From Synechococcus sp. NB0720_010 (GTDB lineage: Bacteria; Cyanobacteriota; Cyanobacteriia; PCC-6307; Cyanobiaceae): a stretch of DNA of 64,000 nt. Location of the stretch: positions 2,234,045-2,298,044 of the forward strand of contig NZ_CP090898.1 in assembly GCF_023078835.1 (NCBI RefSeq), written 5' to 3'. Made by a program: the position numbers and the translations under genes. Position 1 is the stretch's first letter, and each line of letters begins with the position of its first letter. Positions 50,166-55,373 of the stretch are shown here, in pieces. The notes under the pieces were generated by a model that was not told where the DNA came from, made no database searches, and saw only the letters and a program-made list of their open reading frames with translations.

Positions 50166-50246
50166 CGGCTCTCGAGAGGGCGGGGAGTTGGTTTCAGGCT
50201 GATCAGGAATGGCCAACACGGCAACGGGCCAACCCTTAACCGAGAC

Positions 50247-50261
50247 TGAGAACCGTTATCG
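50247..50261. promoter_or_regulatory. Candidate Zur box
   Basis: tgagaaccgttatcg is an imperfect 7-1-7 palindrome resembling the cyanobacterial Zur site TGATAATnATTATCA. It lies 17 bp before the chosen znuA start and 82 bp before the lipoprotein start, where it could repress both. Confidence 0.55.
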
Positions 50262-50277
50262 TTTCCGGAGCTGCGGG

Positions 50278-51207
50278 GTGGGTTTGGCGCGTTCTTTGGC
50301 GCTTGCGGCTGTTGCAAGTGGATTGACGCTCGTTGCTCCGCAGGCCAGTGCTGCACAGGCCTCCCCCTCGGTTGTTGCAGCGAACGGCATTCTTTGCGAC
50401 CTCGTTGGTGTGCTGGCGGGATCGAGTGCTTCTGTCGCCTGCCTGGTGCCCGCTGGAGCCGATCCACACGACTACCGCCTGAACGCCAGGGACCGAGCAG
50501 CGATTCAGTCGGCCTCTCTGGTCTTCTTGAACGGCTATCGGTTAAGTCCTGCCCTCGAGCGTGTCGGGAAGCTCAAGCGCACGGTCAAGGTGGCCGAACG
50601 GGCGGTCCCCTTGAGTCCATCGCGTGATCCGCATGTCTGGCACAACCCGCTCCAGGCGGTGGCGATGACGAGGGCGGTCTCCTCTGAACTCAAGACTTTG
50701 GTGGCGGCCCCTGCCCGCCCGGCGATTGAGGCACGCGCGGCTCGAGTGGCCTCCGTGCTCCAGCAGTTGGATCGATGGGCTGCCGTGCAATTCGCGACGG
50801 TGCCCAAGGGGCATCGTGTGGTGCTGACTGAGCACGATGCGATTGCCGCGTTGGCCCGGCGCTACCAGGTTCGCTATGTGCCCTTGATGCGCTCCTTTGC
50901 CTCAGGCGGCCCGCTGCGTCCCAGCAGTTTGGGTGAGATCACACAAGCGGTGAAGGGATCGGGAACGAAGTATCTGTTCTCGGAGTCCAAGGCCAACTCA
51001 AAAACCTTGCGCCGCATCAGTAAGACCTCGGGGATTCCGATTTATCGCCAGCACTTGGTGGTTGATGGAGTCGCCAAGGGACAGACCTACGTCGCCACGT
51101 TCGTCTCCAATGTCTGCACCTTGGTTGATGCCCAGGGTGGACGCTGTGACCGCTCCGCCGCTCACGCACTCGTCGTCCGTTGGAAAGCGATTCGCTCGTC
51201 TCGCTGA
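50278..51207 (+). CDS. znuA: Zinc ABC transporter substrate-binding protein
   Basis: 309 aa from GTG 50278 with a GGAG seven bases upstream; this places the Zur box outside the gene, unlike the ATG at 50209. Signal peptide ARSLALAAVASGLTLVAPQASA. Cluster A-1 features: VPAGADPHDYRLNARDRAA, VFLNGYRLSPALE, DPHVWHNPLQA (metal His), VLTEHDAIAALARRY. It captures Zn2+ in the periplasm for ZnuBC. It lacks the His-rich loop of many ZnuA. Confidence 0.88.
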   Translation: MGLARSLALAAVASGLTLVAPQASAAQASPSVVAANGILCDLVGVLAGSSASVACLVPAGADPHDYRLNARDRAAIQSASLVFLNGYRLSPALERVGKLKRTVKVAERAVPLSPSRDPHVWHNPLQAVAMTRAVSSELKTLVAAPARPAIEARAARVASVLQQLDRWAAVQFATVPKGHRVVLTEHDAIAALARRYQVRYVPLMRSFASGGPLRPSSLGEITQAVKGSGTKYLFSESKANSKTLRRISKTSGIPIYRQHLVVDGVAKGQTYVATFVSNVCTLVDAQGGRCDRSAAHALVVRWKAIRSSR

Positions 51208-51236
51208 CTGTCGAATCCTCGCTTTGATCTCCTTAG

Positions 51237-52190
51237 ATGATTGGCCCCCGTTCGCTGTTCTTGCCCTTGAGGTGCCTCCCCTTTGGTGTGGGCTGTGCTC
51301 TGTTGCTCTCGGCCCCCGCTTTCGCCCACGGCGGCGCGACTGGCGAGGAGCTAAAGCCTGGCGAATTCAAGGCCTCCCCTGTGATCACCATCGAGGGACA
51401 CGGTGGTCTGGAGAACAATTTGCAGGGGCCGCCCAGGCACTACGCCATCGATGGTCTTTATGGAACGGTTTTGGAGTGGGGGCTCAAGAACCAGGGCAGT
51501 TTTGCGATCGAGGCGGCGATTGGTCCAGCCTTTGTCTGGGGTGAGGCTGAGCATTTTTATGGCCAGGTTCATGCCCATGGGGGGCATGCTGATGAAGAGC
51601 ACGAGGGTGAGTCCTTTACCTCTGCCAGTCCATGGCGCAGGACGGACATTAAGGGCTATCTCACCGCTCGCTATCAACCCTGGAGCAACCTTTCCTTCCA
51701 GGCAACCTGGAAGCCGTACTACATCACTCGAACTGAAACCCTGGATGGTCTAGAGGATCAGTTGGGTTTGAGGAATGAGATTCAGGCGGGTGTGCTCTAC
51801 GCCTTTGGTGATGGCGACGTCAATTTCGCCTTGGGTGATGGCCTGGAGAGTGTTGTGGATGGACTGTTTGTGTCTGCAGTCAACAACACGGGCTGGGATA
51901 GTGATGGAACCTATTTGGGCAACTACACCGATACCTGGGGTGGGTTTGGTTTTAACTACGACCTGCTGAATGTGACGCTCTCAGCTGGTCCACGGTTCTA
52001 CACACCCGGCCGCTACGCCAACCTTCCGCAGCGTACGGATTGGGGTGGAGAGATTGAGTTCGAGTATCCCTTCACCACGTCAGTCGTTGGCTTTGCCCAC
52101 TGGCAGGCCGTGTACAGCACCCAGGCTGGTGAAGGCTGGGGAATTGGATTTCAGCACCACATCGGTACTGGTGTGACTTTCCGCTTCTAG
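51237..52190 (+). CDS. Outer-membrane beta-barrel protein of the zinc-uptake operon
   Basis: 317 aa with signal peptide (GVGCALLLSAPAFAHGG). The mature protein has alternating amphipathic strands and ends in GVTFRF, a C-terminal Phe typical of outer-membrane barrels. A His/Glu-rich loop (VHAHGGHADEEHEGE) could bind zinc. It lies between znuA (29 bp) and znuC (43 bp), so it probably provides the outer-membrane step for zinc. Not a TonB receptor: no plug domain. Confidence 0.78.
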   Translation: MIGPRSLFLPLRCLPFGVGCALLLSAPAFAHGGATGEELKPGEFKASPVITIEGHGGLENNLQGPPRHYAIDGLYGTVLEWGLKNQGSFAIEAAIGPAFVWGEAEHFYGQVHAHGGHADEEHEGESFTSASPWRRTDIKGYLTARYQPWSNLSFQATWKPYYITRTETLDGLEDQLGLRNEIQAGVLYAFGDGDVNFALGDGLESVVDGLFVSAVNNTGWDSDGTYLGNYTDTWGGFGFNYDLLNVTLSAGPRFYTPGRYANLPQRTDWGGEIEFEYPFTTSVVGFAHWQAVYSTQAGEGWGIGFQHHIGTGVTFRF

Positions 52191-52233
52191 GGGCTTTTCT
52201 AGCGATCCGACTAGCTTGAGCTCTAGAGGCTGG

Positions 52234-52932
52234 ATGGCTTTGCTTCGCGTTCAAAACCTCTGCGTTCATCGCGGCCAGCAACTGGTTCTCGATGACGTCT
52301 CTTTCACGATCAAGTCCGGCTCGTTAACGGCTTTGGTTGGCCCCAATGGAGCAGGCAAGAGCACGTTGTTGCATGCCCTAGAGGGGCAACTTCCAGCCAC
52401 CTCCGGCCTCCTGGAGTTGGCTGGTTTGGCCCTCACCCCTGCATTGGCCCGTCGAGAGATTGCGCTGATGCCGCAACGCGGAGCCATTGATTGGAGTTTC
52501 CCAATCACGGTCCAGGAGTTGGTTGCCCTGGGGCGTCTTCTCGGGCGTCGACCGGGCTGCTGCGATGTGGAGGCGGTTTTACAGCGGGTGGGTCTGGCTG
52601 GCTTGGGTTCACGACGGTTGGATGAACTCTCCGGCGGTCAGCAGCAGCGGGCGCTGCTCGCGCGCACGTTGTTGCAGCCAGCCCAGCTCTTGCTCCTCGA
52701 TGAGCCCTGCGCTGCGATTGATCCCCCATCGCGCACCAATTTGTTGCGGGTCATGCGTCAGCTCTGCGATGCGGGATTGACCCTGCTGGTGAGCAGCCAT
52801 GACTGGGGAACTGATCTGGATGCCTACGACGAAGTGCTGGTCCTGGATCGAGCGCTGCTTGCCCAAGGTCCGCCCGAGGCGGTACGGCGCTCCTTGGGCG
52901 ACCTCAGGGTTGGGCATCAATGCTGTGGTTAG
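52234..52932 (+). CDS. znuC: Zinc ABC transporter ATP-binding protein
   Basis: 232 aa from ATG 52234. Walker A GPNGAGKSTLL, Q-loop LMPQRGAIDWSFP, signature LSGGQQQRALLARTL, Walker B LLLLDEPCAAID and SSHD. The PQRGAIDWSFP segment is characteristic of Mn/Zn-type importers. It works with ZnuA and ZnuB in the inner membrane. Its last 4 bp overlap the convergent zur. Confidence 0.92.
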   Translation: MALLRVQNLCVHRGQQLVLDDVSFTIKSGSLTALVGPNGAGKSTLLHALEGQLPATSGLLELAGLALTPALARREIALMPQRGAIDWSFPITVQELVALGRLLGRRPGCCDVEAVLQRVGLAGLGSRRLDELSGGQQQRALLARTLLQPAQLLLLDEPCAAIDPPSRTNLLRVMRQLCDAGLTLLVSSHDWGTDLDAYDEVLVLDRALLAQGPPEAVRRSLGDLRVGHQCCG

Positions 52933-53330
52933 TCGCTTTGACGGGACTGGCAGCTCTCGCACAGTCCGAAGAACTCCAGGGTGTGAAAGATCAACGAAAA
53001 CCCTTTGCTGTCCTCGGTTTCGAGGTCAACGTGATGAACAGGACAATGGTTGAGGACCGCGGTGGCGCCGCAGTCCACGCAGGTTATGTGATGCTCGTCC
53101 CGCCCCAACGGAGCGAAGAGGGCTTCGCCGCTGGGCAGATGCCGACAGCGGATCAGTCCCCGTTGCTGGAGTTGGCGCAGGTGCCTGTAAACCGTCGCCA
53201 GTCCCATGGGGCTGTGGCTGCTCCGCAGCTGGGCATGCAGCTCCTGTCCCGACAGTTCTTGCTCGGCGTCCTCCAGGTGCTGAATGATCAGCTGCTGCCG
53301 CTCCGTGATGCCGGCAACCTGGGGGGGCAT
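52929..53330 (-). CDS. zur: Zinc uptake regulator Zur
   Basis: 133 aa from ATG 53330. Winged helix GLATVYRHLRQLQQRGLIRCR and the C-terminal domain with EHHITCVDCGATAVL and LCESCQ (two CxxC for structural zinc). The Fur-family member embedded in a znu operon is expected to be Zur: zinc-bound, it represses uptake. It lies antiparallel between znuC and znuB, overlapping znuC by 4 bp and facing znuB across 31 bp. Codons 2-3 include a run of seven C. Confidence 0.88.
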   Translation of the reverse strand: MPPQVAGITERQQLIIQHLEDAEQELSGQELHAQLRSSHSPMGLATVYRHLRQLQQRGLIRCRHLPSGEALFAPLGRDEHHITCVDCGATAVLNHCPVHHVDLETEDSKGFSLIFHTLEFFGLCESCQSRQSD

Positions 53331-53361
53331 GCGCGTCCAGTTTGGATGGGGTCCAGATCCT

Positions 53362-54153
53362 ATGGCTGACGCCTGGTGGCTCTTGCCCTTCAGCATCGCC
53401 CTGGTGGTGGGCGTGCTCTGTCCCCTGGCCGGAACGGCTCTGTTGGTGCAGCGCCGGTTGTTCCAGGTCAATTTGATCTCCCATGCGGTGCTGCCAGGAC
53501 TGGTACTCGCCGTGTTCTGGGGGCTGGAGCCAAGCCTCGGCGGATTAATCAGTGGCGTGGTGTTCGCGCTGCTGGCTGAGCGGCTCACGGGGCTTCTGCC
53601 CCAGGGCGATCGCAATCGGGAGGCCGTGCTCAATGCCGTCTTGGCGGGATCGCTGGGGCTGGGGGTCCTGCTGATTCCCTTGCTCGGGGTCCGAGTGGAT
53701 CTCGAGGCGATCTTGTTTGGGGATCTTCTGGCGGCTGGTCCAAGGGAGCTCTTGCAGAGCCTCATTGCCTTGGTCCTGATCGTCGGCGTGCTCGCCGGCC
53801 GCTATCGCCAGTACGTCTATCTCGGGGTGGATCCCGTTGGGGCCCAGGCTGCTGGGCTGCGTGTCTCGGCCCTGCGCTTGCTGTTGACACTGGTCACCGC
53901 GCTGGCGGTGGTGAGCGCGATTAGCGCCGTGGGCATTGTCTTGGTGGTGAGCCTGATGGCAGCACCTGCTCTCTTGGCCTTGCCGAAGGCCAGGAGTTTG
54001 CGGCAGGCCCTGCTGCGCTCCTCCTTGTGGGGACTGCTCCTCTGCGGGGGAGGATTTCTGTTGGCGGTTCAGGATGCAGTCAACCTGCCGCCGGGTCCTG
54101 TGATCGGTGTTGTCTGTCTGGCCACCCTGCCGTTGCCACTCTTGCGCCGCTGA
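53362..54153 (+). CDS. znuB: Zinc ABC transporter permease
   Basis: 263 aa from ATG 53362, about eight helices. ABC-3 family features: QRRLFQVNLISHAVLPGLVLAV, LEAILFGDLLA and VVSAISAVGIVLVVSLMAAPALLAL. It forms the membrane channel for ZnuAC. It is separated from znuC by the antiparallel zur, so it needs read-through across zur or its own promoter in the 31-bp gap. Confidence 0.92.
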   Translation: MADAWWLLPFSIALVVGVLCPLAGTALLVQRRLFQVNLISHAVLPGLVLAVFWGLEPSLGGLISGVVFALLAERLTGLLPQGDRNREAVLNAVLAGSLGLGVLLIPLLGVRVDLEAILFGDLLAAGPRELLQSLIALVLIVGVLAGRYRQYVYLGVDPVGAQAAGLRVSALRLLLTLVTALAVVSAISAVGIVLVVSLMAAPALLALPKARSLRQALLRSSLWGLLLCGGGFLLAVQDAVNLPPGPVIGVVCLATLPLPLLRR

Positions 54154-54712: not shown

Positions 54713-55141
54713 TCAGTCCGGATGTGCGCTGCAGGGCATCCAGAGGTCTCCCATGGCATGGGCTCCTTCGCAGCCCAATTCATGGGCTTTCTCCAGGGCA
54801 ATCTGCCGGCTGGGGTAAGCCATCAACTGTTCCTGCGGGGGCGTGCTGCTGTGGTGTTGATGCCCGCTGCTCGGGCTCAACGTCCAAATCCCCATGGCGC
54901 TCAGACCTGCCACGGCGACACCCATCCCCACCACGCAGGCGTTCACAACGCCCATGCCAACAACGCCGAGACTCAGAACGCCCATCGGCACAACGCCGAT
55001 GCTGACGACGCCCATGGGCACGATGCCGATGGAGATGATCCCCAACGGGGCAATCCCAACGGCCACCAGTTTTGGCGTTCCGCCGCATTGGGAGCCCTGG
55101 TCGATGGCCAGCTTCTCTTTGATCAGTGTTGGGGTGGCCAT
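54713..55141 (-). CDS. DUF3721 protein with eleven hydrophobic pentapeptide repeats
   Basis: 142 aa. Residues 29-83 form eleven tandem pentads of the type G-V/I-V-x-M/I (GIAPL, GIISI, GIVPM, GVVSI, GVVPM, GVLSL, GVVGM, GVVNA, CVVGM, GVAVA, GLSAM); S-I and P-M endings alternate early on, giving a 10-residue period. After a linker GHQHHSSTPPQ the C-terminus is a DUF3721 unit (AYPSRQIALEKAHELGCEGAH then MGDLWMPC). Function unknown; the repeat could be membrane-embedded or a beta-helix. Starts at ATG 55141, 4 bp after the next DUF3721 gene. Confidence 0.75.
   Translation of the reverse strand: MATPTLIKEKLAIDQGSQCGGTPKLVAVGIAPLGIISIGIVPMGVVSIGVVPMGVLSLGVVGMGVVNACVVGMGVAVAGLSAMGIWTLSPSSGHQHHSSTPPQEQLMAYPSRQIALEKAHELGCEGAHAMGDLWMPCSAHPD
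54893..55057 (-). repeat. Fifteen-base tandem repeats encoding hydrophobic pentads
   Basis: Eleven imperfect 15-bp units within the DUF3721 gene. On the plus strand the sense-complement shows recurring cccatgggcac and ccgatg patterns, so repeat expansion by unequal exchange is plausible. Confidence 0.75.
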
Positions 55142-55145
55142 TGGT

Positions 55146-55373
55146 TCAGTGGTTCATCGGCTGTTTGTTCCCTGATGGGTGCTTCTCACAGGGCATCCAC
55201 TGATTACCCATGCGGTGGGCACCGCTGCAGTTGAAATGCTCTTTGGCGGCCTGCTCAGCGGCTTCACGGGTTGGATAGAGCGCTGGCACTCCTTCTGCCC
55301 CAGCTGGGTCAGGGATGGCCAAGGTCAGCAGCAATCCGCAGACCAGTTGGATGCGAAGAAGGCTTGGCCGCAC
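55146..55373 (-). CDS. Small exported DUF3721 protein
   Basis: 75 aa from GTG 55373. Signal peptide LVCGLLLTLAIPDPAGA, then the DUF3721 unit: YPTREAAEQAAKEHFNCSGAH and MGNQWMPCEKH, with two Cys likely disulfide-bonded. The domain has no known function. It lies directly before the longer DUF3721 gene, a tandem pair. Confidence 0.8.
   Translation of the reverse strand: MRPSLLRIQLVCGLLLTLAIPDPAGAEGVPALYPTREAAEQAAKEHFNCSGAHRMGNQWMPCEKHPSGNKQPMNH

Follow-up and report, generated by a model that had tools for sequence, protein, structure and literature searches.

A methionine-ladder repeat fused to DUF3721 in Cyanobiaceae: a candidate copper-handling protein very probably related to Slr0601

The 142-aa protein encoded in the window (the whole 64,000-nucleotide stretch of Synechococcus sp. 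NB0720_010 DNA that was analysed) may be a copper-handling protein of cyanobacteria in which a repeat of the Slr0601 family is joined to a putatively metal-binding DUF3721. Both halves have relatives whose neighbors are copper genes, which argues that the fused protein probably handles copper too, a role to which we give about an even chance from the comparison of sequences and gene neighborhoods; the relatives themselves are linked to copper by their genomic context and by a published regulon. The product runs from a short N-terminus carrying C19 and K24 through a decapeptide repeat and a His-containing linker to DUF3721, in which the motif C-x-G-A-H-x-M-G-x-x-W-M-P-C-x-x-H is found, whereas the partner protein consists of a signal-peptide-like N-terminal stretch and one DUF3721 (Table 1). 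Both DUF3721 copies match Pfam PF12518, a family without a described function, over its full length and pass its curated cut-off of 27 bits (53.4 bits for the fused protein and 52.5 bits for the partner), with one of the two here fused to the repeat. The initial annotation had placed eleven uncharged pentads at 54893-55057, which matches residues 29-83 exactly, and residues 25-87 are free of D, E, K, and R. It had also described a DUF3721-only tandem partner that follows; the partner is there, but it lies upstream in the direction of transcription (55373..55146, minus strand).

Table 1. Coordinates of the gene pair, its parts, and the neighboring metal genes (window positions unless another locus is named).
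Feature	Position	Strand	Basis or remark
Zinc/manganese-type ABC uptake and FUR region	50209..54153		Context for the gene pair
ZnuA	50209-51207	+	
ABC ATPase	52216-52932	+	
FUR-family regulator	about 52932-53498	-	
ABC-3 permease	53284-54153	+	
Fused-protein gene	54713..55141	-	ORF 55141..54713, 142 aa; Pfam and 78-sequence alignment
DUF3721 of fused protein, residues 109-141	54719..54817	-	Pfam E 2e-14; pLDDT about 82-92
Uncharged repeat, residues G29-M83, eleven pentads, better described as decapeptides	54893..55057	-	Sequence, shuffles, Pfam GLTT PF01744
Methionine ladder M43, M53, M63, M73, M83	54893..55015	-	Exact ten-residue spacing
Partner gene, 75 aa, 4 bp upstream of fused gene	55146..55373	-	ORF and Pfam
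DUF3721 of partner, residues 33-66	55176..55277	-	Pfam E 4e-14
Copper cluster with third DUF3721 copy	L225:4743-7885 (own genome, contig C1, about 281-284 kb)		

The eleven pentads of the fused protein are GIAPL, GIISI, GIVPM, GVVSI, GVVPM, GVLSL, GVVGM, GVVNA, CVVGM, GVAVA, and GLSAM, ten of them starting with G and one, at C69, being the exception. Of 13 glycines, 11 share a phase of five, and the five methionines of the repeat (43, 53, 63, 73, and 83) share a phase of ten, neither of which was equaled in any of 100,000 shuffles. The units can be written as G-h-h-[SN]-h / G-h-h-[PG]-M, with a mean hydropathy of +1.9 over the repeat. The same alternation is found in the relatives outside Cyanobiaceae, where 217 of 228 decapeptides carry M or H at position 5 and position 10 of the same units is mostly I, F, V, or A, i.e. 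aliphatic or aromatic; the residues preceding each Gly in the repeat-only relatives alternate strictly, e.g. HIHIHIMFMSMFM. Because position 5 is so constrained and position 10 differs from it, the true unit is ten residues long and carries one soft metal ligand, so that the five-residue period originally proposed gives way to one in which alternate pentads end in Met, a ladder that the first reading had missed. Within Cyanobiaceae (390 decapeptides), position 5 is M in 312 units and L in 78, the L cases being the first unit. An exchange of Met for His at a fixed position fits Cu(I) ligation.

Searches with the GLTT profile and then with a profile of our own revealed that many other families of cyanobacteria encode repeat-only proteins, about 100-130 aa long, in which the repeat follows a basic N-terminus and usually precedes a His-rich tail; the window protein matches the latter profile with an E-value of 4e-34, being itself a row in it. 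One of these genes (L196) allows the repeat to be connected with Slr0601 of Synechocystis sp. PCC 6803. The gene upstream of it encodes a protein that shares about 96% identity with Synechocystis Slr0600 (PDB 5jri), and a ~138-aa ORF and the split-intein DnaE lie downstream; with this order on both sides, the L196 repeat gene is slr0601 by position, and its product is very probably a Slr0601 relative, an identity that comes from synteny and not from the Slr0601 sequence. No tie between slr0603 and dnaE was found in the literature search. The L196 protein shares the decapeptide repeat with the window protein, at 48% identity over 63 residues, but unlike the fused protein, it lacks DUF3721 and has a C-terminal tail containing His and Met. 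In Synechocystis, slr0601-slr0602 belongs to the PetRP copper regulon together with plastocyanin and cytochrome c6 (PMC12382314; PMC7896320), a regulon that encodes only four proteins (PMC7896320). Independently of this, seven of the 46 genomes compared (G354, G583, G399, G582, G679, G629, and G577) have the BlaI/PetR-type gene, which is single in nearly all of the 46, within 4 kb of the repeat, against 0.09 expected, these seven carrying six genus labels and four family labels and not being fully independent. In three loci (L199, L202, and L203), a gene for a PepSY-like membrane protein, recognized by eye, adjoins the repeat gene and is also near the BlaI gene; it is possibly a further member of the copper set.

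Being regulated by copper need not mean binding it, and the strongest rival to a copper-handling role is that the Slr0601 family is copper-regulated but helps build or rearrange electron-transfer complexes at the switch between plastocyanin and cytochrome c6, with the repeat as a membrane scaffold. Six photosynthetic proteins, plastocyanin among them, are reported to interact with Slr0602, whose gene adjoins that of Slr0601 (PMC7896320), Slr0601 falls along with cytochrome c6 at high pH (PMC12382314), and cytochrome c genes are next to the repeat gene in one genus, all of which would suit such an assembly factor. We nevertheless consider it somewhat unlikely, as it accounts neither for the ladder of Met and His nor for the tails rich in His on the repeat-only proteins, nor for the Cys/His domain to which the repeat is fused in Cyanobiaceae.

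Copper handling is the reading toward which the neighbors of the relatives point. In genus g106, the order cytochrome c, repeat, DUF1775 recurs in the loci read, followed in L144 by CopC/CopD, and DUF1775 adjoins the repeat gene in all six genomes that have DUF1775, these DUF1775 copper operons belonging to one genus only. A multicopper oxidase and a DUF411 protein are encoded 1-3 kb from the repeat gene in L157; no plastocyanin gene was found near the repeat gene. The DUF3721 half has comparable company, for the third DUF3721 gene of the genome of the window has a DUF305 (CopM-like) gene immediately on one side and a PepSY_TM-like gene on the other, MerR and multicopper oxidase genes being next to them, and a similar cluster was seen in four further genomes, all of this one genus, DUF411 being part of it in one of them. 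CopM-type DUF305 proteins and CopC/CopD are Met/His-rich periplasmic copper proteins, and the likeness here is one of genomic company, with neither the repeat nor DUF3721 giving a Pfam match to the DUF305 or CopC/CopD families.

Closer to the fused gene itself, the metal context is a different one, and in Cyanobiaceae the metal that the protein handles might be zinc or manganese instead of copper. The window pair is next to ZnuA, ABC-3, and FUR genes, and in another genus, DUF3721 genes are found beside ZnuA/ABC-3 operons, in one genome also beside cytochrome c. Furthermore, although Slr0601 is PetR-controlled, PetR (BlaI family) was absent from all 61 Cyanobiaceae genomes tested, that of the window included, so PetRP control does not apply there and PetR control of the window gene is ruled out. 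The missing PetR and the zinc-type neighbors make zinc a fair rival in this family. On the other side stand the third DUF3721 copy of the same genome, within a multicopper oxidase/DUF305 cluster, and the failure to find a Zur-like palindrome near the gene pair with one assumed consensus and up to three mismatches; Met is also a poor zinc ligand, and on balance, we regard zinc or manganese as unlikely. Beyond the partner gene, the Cyanobiaceae neighborhoods contain no metal gene that is conserved family-wide. Between the ZnuA and ABC ATPase genes, the window also encodes, at 51237-52190 on the plus strand, a 317-aa secreted-looking protein with His-rich stretches and no Pfam match.

The AlphaFold model of the fused protein was poor (pLDDT 60.6), with the repeat as low-confidence strands and DUF3721 predicted confidently (about 82-92 over residues 111-140), and neither a fold search with this low-confidence model nor a PDB sequence search with the fused protein gave a meaningful match or any match, respectively. 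For a repeat-only relative, one of five models was good, with pLDDT 86-92 over most of its core and nearly continuous beta structure, which makes a beta-helix plausible; the structural matches of this model were mostly beta-helix proteins and all weak (E >0.3, TM about 0.1-0.2). A beta-solenoid is thus a plausible form of the repeat as far as the model goes. The initial annotation had suggested a membrane beta-helix or pore, of which the first part finds backing in the model of the relative and the pore in none of the results. A protein that forms a membrane beta-helix or pore and plays no part in metal handling would agree with the uncharged, hydrophobic repeat, with its hydropathy, and with the continuous beta structure, but it does not account for the strict Met/His ladder or the copper-gene context, and no sign of a lumen or an oligomer was seen, which leaves it very unlikely.

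Returning to copper, we infer that the uncharged repeat would form a beta-solenoid in or on the membrane, its hydropathy making membrane association probable, with one column of soft ligands (Met, or His in relatives), one per ten residues, that may bind Cu(I) and either hold it or pass it along. DUF3721 would supply Cys, His, Met, Cys, and His ligands, and the DUF3721 of the fused protein could swap metal with the secreted DUF3721 partner, accepting or donating it on the secreted side. In the genus of the window, the metal bound and transferred between both proteins would be copper. The fullest version, in which a membrane-embedded beta-helix conducts or stores Cu(I) along its Met/His column, delivers it to or from DUF3721 and the partner, and feeds plastocyanin or other copper enzymes, seems to us quite improbable in all its parts together.

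How new this architecture is depends on the part considered. Databases already contain its pieces: GLTT, DUF3721, and a regulon member whose role is unexplained. The repeat matches GLTT (PF01744) in three stretches at 42.2 bits, above the cut-off of 21, and shares its five-residue periodicity; however, XGLTT, which we take to be the five-residue consensus of that family, is absent, with no GLTT anywhere in the sequence and a ten-residue M/H unit in its place. The likeness to the nematode GLTT proteins is one of profile score and does not imply common ancestry. Of the two outcomes that the initial annotation had named as telling against it, a match to a described family therefore did occur, to a GLTT model that carries no function, whereas loss of the frame in relatives did not, the protein being encoded at 352 loci. 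Its distinction from the A(D/N)LxX type of repeat holds, since the A(D/N)LXX pentapeptide families gave no Pfam match at E up to 10 and no such pattern is present; five-residue spacing and a possible beta-solenoid are common to the window repeat and to these quadrilateral beta-helix proteins, but the window repeat is uncharged and hydrophobic. The literature search returned nothing on DUF3721 (PF12518) or the GLTT repeat (PF01744) and no description of the ladder, the fusion, or the link between Slr0601, GLTT, and DUF3721. What is new in the architecture is thus the fusion, which exists, is conserved, and is not mentioned in the literature searched, and what is not new is the repeat, which matches a known family; a copper conduit would be categorically new but is unproven. 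From a physiological point of view, how copper reaches cyanobacterial plastocyanin is understood only in part, and half of the four PetRP regulon proteins have no assigned function. Placing Slr0601, very probably, in a Met/His-ladder family gives the repeat and DUF3721 a specific candidate function in abundant marine phototrophs. The ladder repeat occurs in many genera of cyanobacteria and, in Prochlorococcus and Synechococcus relatives, is joined to a domain resembling a metal site.

The fused protein is conserved across Cyanobiaceae. From the 352 loci of the genome-contig search, 80 were kept, all cyanobacterial by title, and 78 sequences were aligned, in which G29, P32-G34, M43, G44, M53, G54, M63, G64, G72-G74, M83, and G84 of the repeat and C124, G126, H128, M130, G131, and W134-C137 (W134, M135, P136, and C137) of the DUF3721 part are invariant. 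In 82 of 107 usable loci, a DUF3721 ORF of the same strand ends about 60 bases or less before the fused gene begins; this partner is missing at that place in several Prochlorococcus-type genomes, and the gene pair is kept down to Prochlorococcus. Of 291 cyanobacterial genomes sampled, 35 carried DUF3721, each of them from Cyanobiaceae, as did 173 of 201 genomes in a wider Cyanobiaceae sample, and no relative was found in phages. Such conservation contradicts the idea of a low-complexity sequence with no specific function, which is extremely improbable despite the biased composition and the generic Gly-pentad repeats that occur elsewhere, e.g. without a Met/His ladder in an XRE-annotated Firmicute protein. 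The latter, with a hydrophobic Gly-pentad repeat, is encoded on a Pusillibacter plasmid (L243:561-1208). Additional repeat-only proteins, of 65-85 aa, are encoded directly downstream of the fused gene in two loci (L092:1663-1899 and L093) and also in L125 and L133 of another genus.
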